From Levilactobacillus bambusae (GTDB lineage: Bacteria; Bacillota; Bacilli; Lactobacillales; Lactobacillaceae), in contig NZ_QCXQ01000005.1 in the NCBI RefSeq assembly GCF_003124125.1, positions 1 to 44,319 on the forward strand: a stretch of 44,319 nucleotides of DNA, given 5' to 3'. The notes below the pieces were generated by a model that saw only the letters and a program-made list of their open reading frames with translations, searched no databases and was not told the DNA's origin. The position numbers were made by a program, and so were the translations under genes. Of the stretch, positions 1-8,917 are shown one piece after another; the stretch's first letter is position 1, and every line of letters starts with the position of its first letter.

Positions 1-474
1 AGCTCAAGCAGTGAATCCAGCTCTAGCTCACAATCGAGTTCAAGTTCTCAATCAAGCTCGAGCTCACAATCAGATACAGGAAGTGAATCCAGTTCTAACT
101 CACAGTCGGGTACGGATAGTGAATCTGATTCAGACTCGCAATCAAGTACGAACAGTGATTCTAACTCCAGTTCAGAATCTAACTCTGCTTCAGATTCTGA
201 ATCTGGCTCCAACTCCGTAGATGATAGTGACAGTAATAATGGGGCGGGGAACCCTGGCAACCCTGGAAATGACAATAACGGATCGGGTTCTAACGATTCA
301 GCTAGTGGATCGAATGAATCAAGTCAAGCATCCGAAAATCCTTCTGATAAGGGACAATTGCCACAGACAGGCGAAGAAGCTGCTGATCCAACTGCTGAAC
401 TTACCGGTTTAGCATTATTGGGAGCCACACTTCTAGGTCTTCTGAGACGGCGTAACAAACGTAACGAAGACTAA
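1..474 (+). CDS. C-terminal part of a serine-rich-repeat LPXTG surface adhesin (5' truncated by window edge)
   Basis: Reading frame 1 is open from the first base to a TAA at 472-474. The first ~75 residues are almost entirely Ser alternating with Ser/Asn/Gln/Asp/Glu, the hallmark of serine-rich-repeat adhesins. A Gly/Asn/Pro linker follows, then an LPQTG sortase motif (bases 358-372), a hydrophobic stretch rich in Leu/Ala/Gly, and a basic RRRNKRNED tail. This is a complete cell-wall sorting signal, so the protein is exported and linked to peptidoglycan by sortase A. Such repeats are normally O-glycosylated in the cytoplasm before export by the accessory Sec (SecA2/SecY2) pathway; that is family knowledge. 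The four genes just downstream are candidate modifiers of it. The N-terminal binding region lies outside the window, so the ligand is unknown. Confidence 0.9.
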   Translation, partial: SSSSESSSSSQSSSSSQSSSSSQSDTGSESSSNSQSGTDSESDSDSQSSTNSDSNSSSESNSASDSESGSNSVDDSDSNNGAGNPGNPGNDNNGSGSNDSASGSNESSQASENPSDKGQLPQTGEEAADPTAELTGLALLGATLLGLLRRRNKRNED

Positions 475-500
475 TAATTAGTGGATTTACCACAAAAATA

Positions 501-537
501 AAGGAACCTGAGAAGTATTTTCTCGGGTTCCTTTTTT
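501..537 (+). terminator. Intrinsic terminator of the adhesin gene
   Basis: A 12-bp stem (501-512 with 522-533, one G-T pair) is followed by a T run, starting 26 bases after the adhesin stop codon. Confidence 0.85.
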
Positions 538-570
538 GTGATATCTAATGAAAGTCGAACTTAATTGTTT

Positions 571-576
571 TATAAT
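571..576 (+). promoter_or_regulatory. Probable -10 element for the 622-3879 gene cluster
   Basis: A TATAAT hexamer lies 46 bases before the first gene of the cluster and just after the adhesin terminator. No good -35 hexamer is visible at the right spacing, so this is tentative. Confidence 0.4.
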
Positions 577-621: not shown

Positions 622-1356
622 ATGGAACAACCAACCGTTCCTAAACGGATAATTTTGGCTGAATATCTAGTGGATATGTTTGATGCCCAACGACAAGATA
701 AAAAAACAGTTGAAGATATTTTACCTAAAACCGAAAAGTTGGTTGAGTCAACCAAATCCTTTAATATTCCCGTCTATGTTCTGACCAATGCGAAGATCTC
801 ATACAATACACCTGAATTGACGATACTAACGGCATCGTTGCCTCCAGAACTTAAGGACCTTTCGCTATATATGCTAAGGTGGGTCATGGCTTATCAATTC
901 GTGCTCCAGCACCCAGAAATCGAGGAATTGGTATTAGTGGACTTAGGTGATGTGGTCATGCTAAAGAATCCGTTTGGCTTGTTCGATGAACGTTACCTGT
1001 ACATGGGTGATGAATTAACCGATTTAAATATTCCGATTATTAATACGGGCTATATCCCAGATTATGGGCGTAACTTTCTGCGGGAGAATCAATTAGTTCA
1101 GGGTCTAAACCCGGGAGTAATTGGTGGGAAGCGGGCCATTGTTCTAGAATTTTTAAGTATTATGGCCAACCTTATTTGCCAAACGGAAGTGGAGCATCAA
1201 ATAGATGGCAAGCCAGCAATCCGCCCGTTTGAAATGGGGTTGATCGATTACATATTTTATCGTTACTTTGCTACTCGAATGAAACATGGGCGGCAAGTGA
1301 CAACATTATTTTACTTTAACCGGCCAGATATTCGGGCATGGTTTAAGCATAAGTAA
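622..1356 (+). CDS. Putative glycosyltransferase (GT-A-like, DxxD motif), first gene of the duplicated module
   Basis: A 244-aa cytoplasmic protein with no signal peptide or membrane segment. Around residue 107 it reads VLVDLGDVVMLKNPF. This resembles the metal-binding aspartate strand of GT-A-type nucleotide-sugar transferases (family pattern roughly DxxDVxxxxxPF). The C-terminus carries YFATRMKHGRQVTT and ends AWFKHK; the same block recurs in the proteins at 2244-2951 and 2968-3879. ATG 622 is preferred to ATG 604 because the GGGGGAAG ribosome site lies just ahead of it. It sits directly downstream of a serine-rich adhesin, so glycosylation of that adhesin is a reasonable inference, not something the sequence shows. 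It does not clearly match the known GtfA, GtfB, Gtf3 or DUF1792 enzymes of streptococcal clusters. Confidence 0.5.
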   Translation: MEQPTVPKRIILAEYLVDMFDAQRQDKKTVEDILPKTEKLVESTKSFNIPVYVLTNAKISYNTPELTILTASLPPELKDLSLYMLRWVMAYQFVLQHPEIEELVLVDLGDVVMLKNPFGLFDERYLYMGDELTDLNIPIINTGYIPDYGRNFLRENQLVQGLNPGVIGGKRAIVLEFLSIMANLICQTEVEHQIDGKPAIRPFEMGLIDYIFYRYFATRMKHGRQVTTLFYFNRPDIRAWFKHK

Positions 1357-1381
1357 GTGGCTTTAAAGGAGTTTAGTTATA

Positions 1382-2266
1382 ATGAATAAAGCGGAATTTT
1401 ATCGCAGTGTTAAGGACCACTGGTGGAAGTTCGCCATTGATGGGTGGCGGAATCTTACTTTAGAGGGTAATGACGGGACTAAAGCTCTCTTGTCCATTGA
1501 GTTTGAGGCTGACGGTGATCTTTCCTTTCCCTCTGAAATTCCCTATCTACCAACGATGCGGCACTGGGATTGGAATGAAACAACAAATACCATTCTGTTA
1601 CTGGATGGTTACTATGGGTTAGATAAAACGCTGCTACCGCCAGTCCGTGAGAATCAGGATTTAGTAATCCAAGATGCAAGGACTAAGGATCGGTGGGTGA
1701 GTGCGAATGTTTTTGAAACCATTATTCGGCATACTTGGGCGCCCGATCCGCTAATTAAAGATTTAGGGACGTTCTCTCGGTTAATGCACCCCTTTATGGT
1801 AGTGGATAAGCAGCTTCCAATTGATGAATACGAGTCATTGGTTCAAGAATTGGCCATCGCAAGTATTCAGGTTCAACGGAGTTCCTATCAATTAGGAAAT
1901 ATTCAACTGTGGGAGGAACTTCATCAAGAACTATTGGATCAGGCCGAAAAAAGTCCCATTGCGGTTCTGAATGGACGCGTTAAGATGAGGGAGCCTTTTT
2001 ATGTGAGGCTCAAGACTAATAAGTTGACCTTATTGACCTCGCAGCATGCTGAGGTGGTGGGGGTTATGGGGCACCGCTCACTAATGACAGAGTTTGTGGG
2101 CGAGCTTCTATTTGAGTGGCGCTTAAACCAGCTGAATCAGCAGTCACAATCCGTTAATAGGTTATGCTTAACCATTTTGGAACGTTATTTTAAGGGCCGT
2201 TATGTCAATCGGAAAGAAAAAGCCATTAAAGGAGAATTCAATCGTGAATCTCAATTCAATTTTTAA
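1382..2266 (+). CDS. Two-domain protein of unknown function: novel N-terminal domain plus degenerate GT-like C-terminal domain
   Basis: A 294-aa soluble protein starting at an ATG behind AAAGGAG, 25 bases after the previous stop. Residues ~1-120 form a predicted beta-rich domain with a WDWN motif and the closing motif APDPL. An equivalent domain begins the protein at 2968-3879 (WDFN and APDPL there). The rest is loosely related to the 622-1356 protein: GHRSLMTEFVGELL matches GKRAIVLEFLSIM, and REPF matches KNPF. The aspartates expected for metal and nucleotide-sugar binding are absent (LNGRV in their place). It is therefore more likely a non-catalytic partner or chaperone of a transferase, by analogy to GtfB supporting GtfA; this is inference. 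Its 3' end overlaps the next gene by 23 bases, implying translational coupling. Confidence 0.55.
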   Translation: MNKAEFYRSVKDHWWKFAIDGWRNLTLEGNDGTKALLSIEFEADGDLSFPSEIPYLPTMRHWDWNETTNTILLLDGYYGLDKTLLPPVRENQDLVIQDARTKDRWVSANVFETIIRHTWAPDPLIKDLGTFSRLMHPFMVVDKQLPIDEYESLVQELAIASIQVQRSSYQLGNIQLWEELHQELLDQAEKSPIAVLNGRVKMREPFYVRLKTNKLTLLTSQHAEVVGVMGHRSLMTEFVGELLFEWRLNQLNQQSQSVNRLCLTILERYFKGRYVNRKEKAIKGEFNRESQFNF

Positions 2267-2951
2267 GTTAGACCAGATCCCCGTTAACTTTCAGCCTCAC
2301 CAGGCCGTACAGCGGCAGATTGTGCTAGGTGAGTTAATGGGCGATAACCATGATGAAAATATCCGGGTGGGGAATCGACTAGCTGATTCGGTGAATCAAG
2401 TTATGCTGCCCCTGTATCTGCGGTCGTCAACAACGGGATTTGACGAGCGGCCAGGCTTCTACGTTATACCCAATGCGGAACCCGAAAGCTTTTGGCGTTG
2501 GGCCTTTCAGTTTGTTCTAATACACGATGAGTTGGAAGAAATGGCGCTGACGGATCCCTTTGAAGTTCAACTTCTTCATCATCCGTTTGAGGCGCTGCAG
2601 GCTAATCGCCTGTACGTGGCCGATGAATGGGGCGAACTTTCTAAAATTAATTTTAGTGAGAATAGTATTTCGGCTGTTCAAGAGTTCGGTAGGATTAATC
2701 CCCACCTCCAGCTTCTCAATGCTTCAGTCATCATGGGTGATAGAAGTCTCATATTGGAATTTTTGAGTTTAATGATCCGATATACGGAACAGTTAGAACC
2801 TGCAGAACAACAGAATTACTTTAAGGTGGACCAGATTTTTAATTTTGTTTGTTACTCTTATTTTGCTAATCGGTTAGTCCACGGCCGACAGGTTACAACA
2901 ATCTTTGGGTTTGAGCAGCAGCATAGTGAAGCCTGGTTTAAATGTCGATAG
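2244..2951 (+). CDS. GT-like paralogue of the 622-1356 protein, with catalytic motif lost
   Basis: A 235-aa soluble protein. GTG 2244 is chosen because GGAGAA lies 9 bases upstream and the frame before it is only a short overlap with the preceding gene. It parallels the 622-1356 protein along most of its length: FWRWAFQFVLIHDELEEMAL against MLRWVMAYQFVLQHPEIEELVL, then HHPF, DEWGEL, MGDRSLILEFLSLM, and the closing YFANRLVHGRQVTT with AWFKCR. The DLGD motif is replaced by TDPFEV, so metal-dependent transferase activity is doubtful. It starts the second copy of the two-gene module. Confidence 0.5.
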   Translation: MNLNSIFKLDQIPVNFQPHQAVQRQIVLGELMGDNHDENIRVGNRLADSVNQVMLPLYLRSSTTGFDERPGFYVIPNAEPESFWRWAFQFVLIHDELEEMALTDPFEVQLLHHPFEALQANRLYVADEWGELSKINFSENSISAVQEFGRINPHLQLLNASVIMGDRSLILEFLSLMIRYTEQLEPAEQQNYFKVDQIFNFVCYSYFANRLVHGRQVTTIFGFEQQHSEAWFKCR

Positions 2952-2967
2952 AAAGGCTAGATGATAT

Positions 2968-3879
2968 ATGGACAGATTAAGTGTGGTACGGCAACTGTGC
3001 GGCCATAATTGGATTTTTTTAAAGAACGGGCATAGTTTGATTAAAATGGGGGACGGTGGAATTCTGGCCCTGAAATTTTTAGAATCGGGCCGGCTGGCAT
3101 CAGAGTCTGAAATGAGTTTTTTACCTGATACCCAGACCTGGGATTTTAATAGTGATCAGCAATTGATTGAGCTGATGAACCGGAGCGGCAAGGTTGCTTT
3201 GACGCTTCGATTGCCGATTCAAGAAGGCCGGCAGGTAATTATGCGGGACGTTAATTCTAACGATCAATACAGCTATTTTAGTAACGTTGACGCCATTTTG
3301 AACTTACCATTAGCGCCGGACCCCTTGGTGATGGAAAATCCCAGCTTAGGTCGCCAACCAGTCCCAGTAGTCTTACAATTAGGTCAAAAAGAAAGCTCAC
3401 CGTTAAAACACTCCGTCCGGAAGCTAAACGTCAGGATGGAGACTTTATCCATTGATTTGACGCTGCGACAGGGCTGGGACAGTCTGTATGATTACCTGAC
3501 CCAACATCCGGAAATGGATCTAATTGCGGCTATGACGCCCGAATACCAGGTATTAAATGCCCCCTTTGATAGTCTGGTTCCTGACCTGCTATATTTAGAT
3601 GATGAGTTAGAATTTATGACGCTTCCGAATGGGCGTGGCGAAGTCATGCGGCTCAGTGGGCAGATGATGATTGGAACGAGAAGTCTACTGATTGAGTGGG
3701 TCAGTGCGATTTTGATGCAGACGGATTCTGAACGGCTCACCCCGCATACCATTAATTGGGTGGCCTATACTGACTTTGCAGATCGACTTGTCCATGGACG
3801 CCAAGTTACTCAGAAGCCTAGTATTAATTCACCCCAATCATGGATTCAGAGTCCAGATATTCGCCGAAAACGGCATTAA
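2968..3879 (+). CDS. Paralogue of the 1382-2266 protein: same N-terminal domain plus degenerate GT-like domain
   Basis: A 303-aa soluble protein, 16 bases after the previous stop, with a weak GAAAGG site. Residues ~1-115 match the N-terminal domain of the protein at 1382-2266 (FLPDTQTWDFN, then LAPDPLVM). The C-terminal half carries LYLDDELEFM, GTRSLLIEWVSAI and YTDFADRLVHGRQVT, tying it to the 622-1356 and 2244-2951 proteins. The DxxD motif is replaced by MTPEYQV. It closes the four-gene cluster. No clear terminator follows; the next promoter starts about 75 bases downstream. The function is unknown, but linkage to a serine-rich adhesin suggests a role in its modification or folding. Confidence 0.55.
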   Translation: MDRLSVVRQLCGHNWIFLKNGHSLIKMGDGGILALKFLESGRLASESEMSFLPDTQTWDFNSDQQLIELMNRSGKVALTLRLPIQEGRQVIMRDVNSNDQYSYFSNVDAILNLPLAPDPLVMENPSLGRQPVPVVLQLGQKESSPLKHSVRKLNVRMETLSIDLTLRQGWDSLYDYLTQHPEMDLIAAMTPEYQVLNAPFDSLVPDLLYLDDELEFMTLPNGRGEVMRLSGQMMIGTRSLLIEWVSAILMQTDSERLTPHTINWVAYTDFADRLVHGRQVTQKPSINSPQSWIQSPDIRRKRH

Positions 3880-4031: not shown

Positions 4032-5237
4032 TTGAATATCAAGACTTCAATGGCTTGCGCCATGGTTTTAACAACTATGGGAGCCACAGCAGTTACCAGC
4101 GTAGCTGCACCCGCAACTCAAGCACAGGCAGCAACTACAACGACGGTTAACCGACGGGAAGCTGCTGCAGCGCGTTCATTAGGGGTTTACACCAAGGGAA
4201 GCTTAACCGCTAGCGGGACTGCTGTTAACGGTTTACGTCTTCAAGCGAACAATACGGTCACTACCGGTCAACTAAACCTGCAGTACAGTGCTACTTCAAT
4301 TTCAACAGCCTTATCTGAAAATTCGAAGTACGTGGTTAAAGTTCCTAAGGAATTACAGCCTTTAGTTGCTTCGAAGGACTTTAAACAATATATTTCTGGT
4401 TCATTTAAGTGTAAGGTCAAATTAGGTGGCACTGCTAAGCGTACATATACAGAAGATGATATGAGTATTGCTTCGGATGGTTCAACAATCTCATTTGATA
4501 ACCCACAAATGACGTATTTAATTGGTTCAGAATATACGATTAACGTTACCTTGGACTTAGGTCAAGCAGTAACAAACTCAGGAATTCGGATTGCTAATTC
4601 TAGTGCTGCTAATGGTTACCACTTTGATAGTGCGGTTACTCCAGCTTCTAACGCCATTAACTGGTCCGCTGTCGGTAACTATAATGCAGGTGCAACGTTG
4701 CCAACTGTTCAATTAGATCCTGGTTATGATTTACTTCATACCAAACCAACTATTGAAAAAGTTACGGATAAGAGTACGTACGTTACTGGTACTGGAACTC
4801 CAGGTGCCAAAGTAACGGTTAAAGTTGGCGACAAAGTAATCGGAACGGGTACCGTTGATGCTAATCGAGTATACGTTATCGATATTCCAAAACAGCATGC
4901 TGATGTAACGTTATCCGTTACTCAAAATACTGGAGTAGGTGAAAGTGATGCTGCAACCACGGTTGTTCAACATGAAGCCTCAGCACTTCCAGCACCCACT
5001 TTGACACCAGGCGTTTACGCTCAAGGTGCTAAAGTTACTGGGATTGGTGACACACCCGGCGATAAGATTACGGTAATGGATGCCAATCGAGGAAATGTAC
5101 TTGGAATCAGCTACGTTAATTCCGATAAGACATTTGCTGTTGGCGTTTCCAATGCAGGAAGTAATACTGTTATTTCCGTATACGAATCTAATAATGACGG
5201 CGATAAGAGCCAATCAACCTTTGGACTGATTCAATAA
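4032..5237 (+). CDS. Secreted protein with Big_6-type bacterial Ig-like domain (paralogue 1)
   Basis: A 401-aa exported protein starting at TTG 4032 behind AGGGGGAA. Residues 1-33 are a signal peptide ending near the cleavage-like AQAA. A unique ~190-residue domain follows (YTKGSLTASGTAVNGL onward). An Ig-like repeat of the Big_6 kind runs from about KPTIEKVTDKSTYVTG to TVVQH, and a second, shorter Ig-like unit reaches the C-terminus. There is no LPXTG motif, lipobox or membrane anchor, so it is released or held non-covalently at the wall. The mature protein has a single cysteine (SGSFKC), conserved in the neighbour at 5529-6776. Both genes have their own promoter and terminator. Adhesion or wall association is the likely role. 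Confidence 0.8.
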   Translation: MNIKTSMACAMVLTTMGATAVTSVAAPATQAQAATTTTVNRREAAAARSLGVYTKGSLTASGTAVNGLRLQANNTVTTGQLNLQYSATSISTALSENSKYVVKVPKELQPLVASKDFKQYISGSFKCKVKLGGTAKRTYTEDDMSIASDGSTISFDNPQMTYLIGSEYTINVTLDLGQAVTNSGIRIANSSAANGYHFDSAVTPASNAINWSAVGNYNAGATLPTVQLDPGYDLLHTKPTIEKVTDKSTYVTGTGTPGAKVTVKVGDKVIGTGTVDANRVYVIDIPKQHADVTLSVTQNTGVGESDAATTVVQHEASALPAPTLTPGVYAQGAKVTGIGDTPGDKITVMDANRGNVLGISYVNSDKTFAVGVSNAGSNTVISVYESNNDGDKSQSTFGLIQ

Positions 5238-5528: not shown

Positions 5529-6776
5529 ATGGCTAATTATAAGACAGCGTTAATGAGCGCTATTGTTCTTGCTTCTTTAGGAGCTACAGCTGTTACTTCT
5601 ACTACGCAGGCGGATGCTGCTTCGTATAAGGGGCAAACAACATCGGTTGCTAAGCAAAAGGCAGCGGATAAGCAGAACTTAAAGAAGACCAAAGATGGCA
5701 AGCAAACCAGAGCATTGGACGTCTACACTAAGGGTACTTTAACTGCTAGTGGGACTGCCGCTAACGGGCTAGACTTGCAAGCTAATAACACAGTAACGAC
5801 TGGTGTGCTAAACTTAAGCTATGACGGTGAATCCGTTGGGACTGCGTTATCAGAAGATTCAAAGTATGTTGTAAAAGTGCCAAAGGAATTACAACCATTA
5901 GTTGCCTCCAAAGATTTTAAGCAGTATATATCTGGTAGCTACAAGTGTGATATCACTGGTGGGGGAACAGTAAACCATACCTACACTGAAGATGACATCA
6001 GCATTGCAACGGACGGTTCAACCATCTCCTTTGATAACCCACAGACAACGTATCTGTTGGGTGCTAACTATACCATCAATATTTCCTTAGACTTAGGTCA
6101 GGCCGTGACAGATACTGGAATTCGGATTGCTGATTCGACTGACGTCAGCAATGATTATCATTTTATATCAGCTGTAGTACCTAGTGAAGGCGCCATTGAC
6201 TGGTCCCTAGTAGGGGATTACAATGCTGGCGTAAACTTGCCAACTAATAAGTTAGATCCAGGATACGATCTGCTAAACCAAAAGCCGACGATTGAAAAGG
6301 TAACGGACAAGAGTACGCATGTTACCGGTTCAGGGGTACCTGGAGCTAAGATCACGGTTAAAGTTGGCGACAAGGTAATTGGAACGGGTACCGTTGATGA
6401 AAATGGAATTTATACGGTAGAAATTCCGACGCAAAGTGAGGGTGTGACCATCACCGTTACCCAGAATACTGGGGTCGGTGAAAGTAAGCCGGCAACAACA
6501 GTGGTTCAGCATGAAGATGCTGACATTCCTGCTCCAGTTGTGAATAATCCGATTAAAGCTGGTGAACCCCTGACAGGTTTAGGTAGTGAACCAGGTGATA
6601 AAATTACCGTGGTTTCTGCTAATGACCAAACTAAGGTGTTAGGAACGGGTTATGTTGAAGATGATTATACATTCTCCATTACCCTGAGTGATGCTCCAGC
6701 GGGTACAATCGTTGGAATTTATGAATCCAATAGCAACGGTGACAAGAGCGCATTAGCTTATGCTTTCATTAGTTAA
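5529..6776 (+). CDS. Secreted protein with Big_6-type bacterial Ig-like domain (paralogue 2)
   Basis: A 415-aa exported protein with ATG 5529 after TTGGAGGG. The architecture matches the 4032-5237 protein: signal peptide ending near QADAA, a basic Lys/Gln-rich segment (residues ~33-60), the shared ~190-residue domain (YTKGTLTASGTAANGLDLQ), a Big_6-type Ig-like repeat (PTIEKVTDKSTHVTGSG to TVVQH) and a second Ig-like unit. Identity is high along the whole length, so this is a tandem duplication. The extra basic segment after the signal peptide could aid binding to anionic wall polymers (inference). It has one cysteine in the mature part (SGSYKC) and no covalent anchor motif. Confidence 0.8.
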   Translation: MANYKTALMSAIVLASLGATAVTSTTQADAASYKGQTTSVAKQKAADKQNLKKTKDGKQTRALDVYTKGTLTASGTAANGLDLQANNTVTTGVLNLSYDGESVGTALSEDSKYVVKVPKELQPLVASKDFKQYISGSYKCDITGGGTVNHTYTEDDISIATDGSTISFDNPQTTYLLGANYTINISLDLGQAVTDTGIRIADSTDVSNDYHFISAVVPSEGAIDWSLVGDYNAGVNLPTNKLDPGYDLLNQKPTIEKVTDKSTHVTGSGVPGAKITVKVGDKVIGTGTVDENGIYTVEIPTQSEGVTITVTQNTGVGESKPATTVVQHEDADIPAPVVNNPIKAGEPLTGLGSEPGDKITVVSANDQTKVLGTGYVEDDYTFSITLSDAPAGTIVGIYESNSNGDKSALAYAFIS

Positions 6777-8186: not shown

Positions 8187-8242
8187 CGGATTATTAAGTA
8201 TGATAGACGAACAGAGTGCTTAATGAAGATGGGGGTGTTCGT

Positions 8243-8917
8243 GTGAAAGGATTCAAAACGCTGATGACGCTAGCCATACTCGTTGGTGGCGGCTGGTGGG
8301 TGAAGACTAACCCGCAGGTAGTCGCTAACGCCTTCAATGAGCTGACGGCCCAATTCAGTCAGATCGAGCAGTCAACGAATTCCAAGGTGGCAACGAAATC
8401 CAAGACGAAAACGACGCAGAAGAAGGAACATAGCGGATCAGAGACACCGATTGAACCGATCGTCCAAGACGTTAAGTTGAGTTCGCACTACCGGTATCGG
8501 TTTGATAAGAACGTTCCGGCGGCTGCTCGGCGTGTTTTTCTGGATGCAGTGGCGGTCTATAACCGGACTAAAATTGTGCAAATTACACCGGATGGGAACG
8601 CTAAAAATCAGATTACGTTTGCGATGTACCATAAGCAGATGAGTCAGAATACGAGCAATATTGAGCTAGGGGTTGGGGGTCCGCAGATTACGACAACGAC
8701 CAGTGTGACGGGCACCACAAGTGTCAATCATCCGACGGCCAAGCTGAACGGGGACTATGCCGATGCCTTTAGCGACTCTGTGGCAATTCATGAGTTGGGA
8801 CACGCCCTCGGCTTAGACCATAGCGACAGTCCGATGTCAGTCATGTATCCTGAAAATCAAGGTCGGACCACGTTATCCGAAGCGGATATTGCTAGCTTGA
8901 GAGAAATTTATGGGTAA
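8243..8917 (+). CDS. Matrixin-like secreted or membrane-anchored zinc metalloprotease
   Basis: A 224-aa protein. Residues ~5-22 form a single hydrophobic signal/anchor segment, followed by a Ser/Thr/Lys linker (to ~residue 75) and a catalytic domain. Residues ~183-193 read HELGHALGLDH, the zinc-binding HExxHxxGxxH motif of metzincins. SPMSVMYP after it supplies the Met-turn, as in peptidase family M10 (matrixin). It should act outside the membrane. GTG 8243 is preferred because GGGGGTG lies 6 bases upstream and it places the hydrophobic segment at the N-terminus. A GTG at 8216 would add nine residues without a ribosome site. There is no pro-domain cysteine switch. The substrate is unknown. 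Confidence 0.85.
   Translation: MKGFKTLMTLAILVGGGWWVKTNPQVVANAFNELTAQFSQIEQSTNSKVATKSKTKTTQKKEHSGSETPIEPIVQDVKLSSHYRYRFDKNVPAAARRVFLDAVAVYNRTKIVQITPDGNAKNQITFAMYHKQMSQNTSNIELGVGGPQITTTTSVTGTTSVNHPTAKLNGDYADAFSDSVAIHELGHALGLDHSDSPMSVMYPENQGRTTLSEADIASLREIYG

Follow-up and report, generated by a model that had tools for sequence, protein, structure and literature searches.

A four-gene glycosyltransferase-like module of Levilactobacillus bambusae recurs in accessory Sec adhesin loci and shares a protein domain with phages

Based on the sequence evidence assembled here, four adjacent genes (g1, g2, g3 and g4) near the start of a contig of Levilactobacillus bambusae (NZ_QCXQ01000005.1; its 44,319 nucleotides are referred to as the window) probably constitute an accessory glycosylation module for serine-rich-repeat adhesins, in which g1 would be a glycosyltransferase and g2 to g4 its pseudoenzyme partners. 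The module is best described as a variant of the accessory Sec (SecA2/SecY2) loci for adhesin glycosylation, in which an unnamed glycosyltransferase-like family, one that phages have too, is kept together with degenerate paralogues. Four observations carry this understanding: the four genes are paralogous; they recur in accessory Sec loci; g1 is homologous to a phage protein domain; and residues invariant in g1 are lost in g3, g4 and g2. An earlier, sequence-only reading had proposed an undescribed adhesin-modification system. Recurrence in the examined loci of serine-rich adhesins and accessory Sec genes bears this out in part, but the module adds to a known pathway and does not stand alone.

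Within the 1.97-Mb assembly (39 contigs), nine places match g1 at E<=1; combined with the lists of open reading frames (ORFs), they give three four-gene sets, situated on contigs C10 and C21 and on the window contig (C35). The copies on C10 and C21 lie inside accessory Sec loci, each flanked by a GtfB-like gene on one side and a Gtf3-like gene on the other. The order on C10 is serine-rich protein, Gtf3-like, SecA2, SecY2, Asp1, Asp2, Asp3, GtfA-like, GtfB-like, g1, g2, g3, g4 and Gtf3-like, the serine-rich protein having 1860 residues (39% serine), an LPQTG motif and a KxYKxGKxW-type signal (TIGR03715). On C21, a GtfB-like gene (adjoining g1 and without match to the GtfB model) precedes g1 to g4, Gtf3-like, SecA2, SecY2, Asp1, Asp2 and Asp3; then come GtfA-like, GtfB-like, a gene for 320 residues that no NCBIfam model matches at E<=1e-10, and lastly a KxYKxGKxW serine-rich protein cut by the left end of the contig. 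Gene labels come from NCBIfam for the relatives in L. selangorensis (see below), for SecA2 and for Asp1, and otherwise from small profiles built from those proteins; Gtf3 is the name that we presume to apply to neighbours whose NCBIfam matches are PRK09814-type sugar transferases below the cut-offs. Both SecA2 genes score above the family cut-off, and on C10 as on C21 the genes for SecA2, SecY2, Asp1 to Asp3, GtfA/GtfB and a serine-rich-repeat protein stand in one locus. A third SecA2 candidate, on C36, was dismissed for a score below that cut-off.

Of the accessory Sec cluster, the adhesin end alone is visible at the window copy. C35 may continue the C21 locus, because it starts part-way through the C-terminal portion of a serine-rich protein whose orientation matches; the first 330 bases of the window match nothing but themselves in the assembly, and the repeat patterns of the C35 and C21 ends are unlike. 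Including C10 and C21 (L086-L089), this 1.97-Mb genome has two accessory Sec loci and four proteins whose KxYKxGKxW signal scores above the cut-off; by eye, one of the four has DUF285-like repeats as well. Passages of an earlier paper (PMC6973325) describe a genome with two accessory Sec clusters and an L. reuteri cluster with eight predicted glycosyltransferases.

The association extends to another genus. In L. selangorensis (stretch L011; L012, from the same contig, was excluded throughout), the order is SecA2, SecY2, split Asp1, Asp2, Asp3, GtfA, GtfB, g1, g2, g3, g4 and Gtf3, continued by two fusions of Gtf3 with DUF1792 and by a further g1-g2 pair, and it is the same in G010:C30. The accessory Sec cluster is present there, with no serine-rich-repeat protein in the stretch inspected; the SecA2, Asp1, Asp2 and Asp3 models were passed where tested, SecY2 and GtfA match below their cut-offs, and GtfB matches at just E=2.9e-7. 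The split of Asp1 over two ORFs (L011:3808-5388) recurs in G010 as one TAG at the same place, and the two fusions (L011:14130-17776) are tandem Gtf3-DUF1792 (GT-D) proteins within the accessory Sec locus.

Across a family sample of 301 genomes, g1 was found at E<=1e-10 in 12 genomes from 8 of 40 genera. Asp1 above its cut-off occurs in 75 of the 301, and in 9 of the 12 g1 genomes vs 66 of the 289 others (Fisher p=2.8e-4, ignoring relatedness). The g1 genomes without it are G018, G189 and G230, the last having a SecA2 above cut-off adjoining g1. The stretches round g1 were inspected in all 12 genomes, a further G153 stretch (L020) being covered among the genes listed. Nine (G000, G010, G024, G098, G129, G153, G185, G189 and G230) have an accessory Sec or a serine-rich/KxYKxGKxW gene in the g1 stretch. 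Wide occurrence away from any such neighbour is therefore mostly not what is seen: three genomes show none nearby, and two of the nine carry many copies elsewhere. A sample of 398 genomes from the phylum gave one match at E<=1e-8, namely the genome under study, which was the sole family member among the rows listed. A scan of named genome contigs gave one locus, both of its peptide patterns being strict, and 72,556 plasmid records gave 2 weak matches.

Homology to phage proteins links g1 to glycosyltransferases. The window g1 matches the phage family phrog_1579, annotated 'glycosyltransferase' and drawn mostly from mycobacteriophages, over positions 254-482 of 482 at E=4.4e-21; the C10 g1 copy matches at 3e-38, the copy in L023 at 4.9e-40 and the C10 g3 at 1.6e-14 over part of its length, and a Gtf3-like control protein gave no match. 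What is shared is the C-terminal half with its invariant residues, whereas the N-terminal, GT2-like half of the family profile and of the phage proteins submitted whole to Pfam is absent from g1. By tblastn (E<=1e-3) against 50,697 phage records, g1 finds 348; named Mycobacterium phages account for 330, and at least 80% of the query is covered in 82. When a phage copy serves as the query (E<=1e-4), 372 records are found, including Escherichia, Cronobacter and Klebsiella phages. Phages searched with g4 gave nothing at E<=1; g2 was not searched there. Eight of 11 viral-contig loci were used as phage rows in what follows, L031, L035 and L038 being excluded as repeats or near-copies. Submitted whole to Pfam, four of four phage proteins have a GT2 model in front of the g1 domain, above the cut-off in L028 and L032 and below it in L030 and in Ramsey gp106, which matches phrog_1579 end to end. 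In the phage of L029 the domain is free-standing, near a GT25-like gene (phrog_2835) and genes that by eye resemble those of sialic-acid synthesis. In a 760-residue phage protein (L032:1210-3489), the g1 domain is joined to a GT2 domain and to a stretch with weak likeness to GT8 (E=0.043).

The paralogy of the four genes is far beyond chance. The sequence-only reading had described two alternating architectures, the domain alone in g1 and g3 and an N-terminal domain plus that domain in g2 and g4, and this description holds: all four ORFs are intact, the N-terminal domain is common to g2 and g4, and the comparisons agree. With BLASTP among 12 proteins, the window pairs give E=1.5e-29 for g1-g3, 1.8e-17 for g2-g4, 9e-14 for g3-g4, 1e-9 for g1-g4 and 0.02 for g1-g2; profiles of three sequences a side give 1.7e-37 (g1-g3), 2.1e-27 over 264 columns (g2-g4), 6.3e-20 (g3-g4), 6.5e-16 (g1-g4) and just 0.014 (g1-g2). 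Larger profiles, 32 g1 rows against 34 rows of the g2/g4 type, match at E=1.4e-16 with a probability of 98.8. Of the shared motifs proposed earlier as signs of common descent, PF and R-S-L/I stand in the domain alignment; HGRQVT is complete in the window g1, g3 and g4 but not in g2.

The duplication behind the two paralogous pairs was not a recent event confined to this locus. In a tree of 44 rows, the four g3 genes form one branch (100/100), as do the four g1 genes of the four-gene sets (98/94); eight phage rows and L027 stand on one side of a branch supported at 100/97, the phage rows alone at 95/56. In a partner tree of 34 rows, the four g2 and the four g4 genes of these sets each form one branch (99/96), and the deepest forks are weak (70/59). 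The root of both trees is drawn for display only and the L027 branch is long. By these trees, g1, g2, g3 and g4 are four separate clades common to this genome and another genus, and the duplication would therefore predate the split from L. selangorensis, provided that the block was not transferred from one to the other.

Most g1 genes in the sample are paired with a partner. A gene of the g2/g4 type lies within 900 bases 3' of g1 in 29 of 34 g1 rows, or for 28 of 32 distinct genes once L018_13078 and L019_3_557, cut copies of genes counted elsewhere, are dropped. Three of these partners lie at 146 to 498 bases and the others within about 25 bases or overlapping; one is short (L021, 143 residues) and one is split over two ORFs (L018_11272). 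Genes without partner are L014_5676, L017_13073, the short copy L019_15639 and the one for a 464-residue protein (L027:862-2256), which has an intact phage-like g1 domain and adjoins a KxYKxGKxW protein. We dropped this last protein as proof of a fusion between partner and g1, its N-terminal half resembling the g2/g4 N-terminal domain too weakly (one stretch at E=5e-4 and probability 30, the other at E=0.04 and probability 1).

Residue conservation separates g1 from its three paralogues. Eleven positions (R86, D107, D110, E131, N163, G165, G169, M205, G223, H243 and K244) are invariant in 27 aligned g1 and phage sequences, drawn from 40 rows (32 g1 and 8 phage). In all 40, R86, D107, D110, N163, G165 and G169 are kept by 32 of 32 g1 and 8 of 8 phage rows; H243 and K244 by 31 of 32 g1 (one row is gapped) and 8 of 8 phage rows; and E131 by 31 of 32 g1 (one has Gln) and again 8 of 8 phage rows. 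With a hydrophobic strand that leads into an acidic pair, with its N-x-G motif and with its C-terminal histidine, the domain resembles the logic of the GT-A fold, from which we take it that D107/D110 and H243 could bind metal or donor. All four g3 sequences have lost D110, G165, M205 and H243 and all four keep W240, F241, G223 and V226. Aligned g4 and g2 sequences (four each) are more degenerate than g3: DxxDV and the C-terminal HK are missing from all eight, and the loop that precedes the N-x-G motif is shortened. The simplest reading of g2 to g4 is that catalysis was lost and the fold retained. Four glycosyltransferase-like genes had been proposed, of which g1 is homologous to a domain of the phage glycosyltransferase family; since it alone keeps the invariant residues, one enzyme with three degenerate relatives is the likelier account.

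Several observations weigh against an adhesin glycosylation module built on g1, and they concern distribution in the first place. Within the genus, the g1 family occurs in 1 of 36 genomes at E<=1e-6, the one under study, and it is therefore dispensable there. G018, G165 (an 8.7-kb contig) and G295 showed neither an accessory Sec gene nor a serine-rich one near g1. Of the 16 distinct g1 copies of G129 and G153, 11 lie in two stretches (L016 and L019) that have DUF285 proteins, assigned from one protein per stretch put to Pfam, and no accessory Sec gene. From these three genomes and 11 copies it could be argued that g1 is a glycosyltransferase whose main acceptor is another one, such as surface proteins of the BspA-like (DUF285) type or a polymer of the cell envelope. 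We regard this as unlikely, given the neighbours found in nine of 12 genomes, the serine-rich or KxYKxGKxW protein that adjoins g1 in the window, L023 and L027, and the location of three of the four-gene sets found, the window's being the fourth, inside accessory Sec gene runs. The stretches L016, L018 and L019 of G129 and G153 present long arrays of g1-g2 pairs and extra partner copies near the DUF285 proteins, which also have a weak metallopeptidase match.

The identity of g1 as a glycosyltransferase is argued from the phage homology, in which the domain accompanies glycosyltransferase domains, together with the invariant residues and the place in loci of adhesin glycosylation and export. 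Set against it, g1 to g4 have no credible Pfam or NCBIfam match (g1 none at E<=1). Local profile comparison of the g1 family with GT8 (E=0.39) and GT32 (E=0.13), both GT-A fold families, was not significant, scoring no better than unrelated or column-shuffled controls (0.05-0.7); g1 has DxxD, not DxD. Solved structures hold no sequence relative, as judged by a one-sequence search and three profiles. The glycosyltransferase fold of g1 is therefore putative. The family's weak Pfam matches, below cut-off, include DUF6734 in 1 of 27 members (3.9e-4) and DUF7780 in 2 of 27 (best 0.016); a DUF6734 search of 101 family genomes gave no match, but neither did its controls, which makes it uninformative. 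Moreover, phrog_1579 may owe its name to the GT2-like half. It could then be supposed that g1 belongs to another class of enzyme modifying glycans or protein, in line with the missing profile link and the scattered, sub-threshold Pfam matches. This we consider very unlikely: the phage g1 domains are accompanied, in the same protein or run of genes, by GT2, GT25 and (weakly) GT8-like domains, and even the free-standing copy of L029 has its GT25-like neighbour.

A link to phage virion glycosylation is drawn from neighbourhoods, since the g1 domain is absent from all three of Che8 gp108-110, which were rejected as direct relatives of g1. In both stretches examined, Ramsey and L028, a homologue of Che8 gp110 (phrog_854, GT25) lies close 3' of the phage gene with the g1 domain, in Ramsey with one small gene between them. 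Che8 gp110, of another family than g1, and Corndog gp38 are called essential for capsid glycosylation in the parts consulted of a 2025 mSystems paper (PMC12363180).

With respect to the partners, g3 keeps D107 in three of four sequences and N163 in two of four, and has Glu at D110 in two of four, so that it may have weak activity. These residues would suit a scheme in which all four proteins are active glycosyltransferases working in sequence, each adding a different sugar, as would the intact ORFs of all four four-gene loci, the separate clade of each gene, and the two to ten glycosyltransferases reported for accessory Sec clusters in passages of PMC6973325. That scheme seems improbable to us in view of the four positions lost from every g3 and of the missing DxxDV and HK motifs and shortened loop in g4 and g2. 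Equally improbable is the opposite scheme of four non-enzymatic proteins, adhesin chaperones or export adaptors with a role like that of GtfB or the Asp proteins: it would agree with the position among Asp and GtfB-like genes and with degeneracy in three of the four, but the 11 invariant positions of g1, several of them polar and common to GT2-bearing phage proteins, are hard to explain without catalysis.

The module of one enzyme and three partners that we favour would form part of the accessory Sec pathway. As a metal-dependent glycosyltransferase, g1 would there transfer one or more sugars to adhesin O-glycans in the cytoplasm, after priming by GtfA/GtfB and perhaps after extension of the Gtf3 type. 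Descended from the same domain, g2, g3 and g4 would have lost the putative active site and serve as non-catalytic partners of g1, recognising the acceptor or assembling the complex, in much the way that GtfB serves GtfA. Activity, metal, sugar, acceptor, order of steps and complex formation are thus predicted properties of the module. A more far-reaching formulation, in which a heteromeric glycosyltransferase has one catalytic subunit and three dead paralogues, and in which an unnamed family common to phage virion and adhesin glycosylation has moved between phages and accessory Sec loci, is put forward tentatively and is rather doubtful.

Analogies to known systems exist. With the accessory Sec loci for serine-rich-repeat proteins (GtfA, GtfB, Gtf3/GtfC, DUF1792), the module shares the location and the likely substrate, and g1 with its degenerate partners recalls the active/inactive pair GtfA/GtfB; GtfB is described as a chaperone in passages of PMC6973325. 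As the sequence-only reading had held, g1 to g4 themselves are unlike these sets: they match neither the GtfA/GtfB models TIGR02918/TIGR02919 at E<=1 nor, in Pfam/NCBIfam, the Gtf3/GtfC and DUF1792 (GT-D) families, and the genes of those kinds are separate neighbours to which the module is additional. The mycobacteriophage system of Che8 gp110 and its neighbours is similar in that Ramsey and L028 have a g1-domain gene near a gp110-like GT25 gene, and differs in that gp108-110 are without the domain. A description of the g1 to g4 set was not found in the titles, abstract beginnings and passages searched (including PMC11256854). A cluster of L. casei combines GT4 and GT8 genes with one whose function is unknown, according to passages of PMC5566788; it was not compared with g1 to g4.

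The features of the window are collected in the table. The LPXTG serine-rich protein said to precede the genes is indeed there, its ORF cut by the contig end, with 35% serine, LPQTG at 358-372 and a PF00746 match above the Pfam cut-off (E=4.5e-7). The hairpin and the promoter-like site between adhesin and g1 suggest that g1 to g4 may be a transcription unit of their own, terminator-like sites numbering 5 vs 2.9 in shuffles and promoter-like sites 12 vs 7.9. For g1, another in-frame ATG lies at 604, and GGGGGAAG at 611-618, 3 bases 5' of the ATG at 622, weakly supports the latter start; for g3, AAAGGAG at 2228-2234 supports the GTG at 2244, with an overlap of 23 bases with the g2 end.

Table. 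Features of the window around g1 to g4
Feature	Coordinates	Strand	Remarks
Serine-rich LPQTG cell-wall protein, C-terminal part	1..474	+	Truncated by contig end; putative substrate
Terminator-like hairpin, interval between adhesin and module	500..534	+	16-pair stem and T tail; consensus match only
Promoter-like site 5' of g1	548..576	+	10/12 consensus bases; consensus match only
g1, putative catalytic glycosyltransferase	622..1356	+	phrog_1579 C-terminal half; invariant residues
g2, unknown N-terminal domain and strongly degenerate g1-type domain; putative partner	1382..2266	+	
g3, g1 paralogue that lacks H243 and has Glu in place of D110; putative pseudoenzyme	2244..2951	+	
g4, g2 paralogue (N-terminal domain and degenerate g1-type domain); putative pseudoenzyme	2968..3879	+	

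Directly 3' of the module, two tandem paralogues (4032-5237 and 5529-6776) have a Big_6 domain by Pfam; their N-termini are signal-like by eye, and LPXTG was looked for in them and not found. A matrixin-like metallopeptidase (PF00413, E=5.4e-12) is encoded at 8216-8917.

Lastly, the module would have importance for how bacterial surfaces are decorated. Accessory Sec adhesins carry sugars added by sets of glycosyltransferases that are specific to the locus, and the surface glycan would change with each new family. If the proposal is right, an unnamed family is added to the accessory Sec loci and tied to phage genes that lie near a gene reported for capsid glycosylation. The module would also offer a clean case of one active enzyme retained with three degraded copies, useful for testing the ways in which dead enzymes steer glycosylation. 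Direct tests are possible for the enzyme, for its partners and for the phage link.

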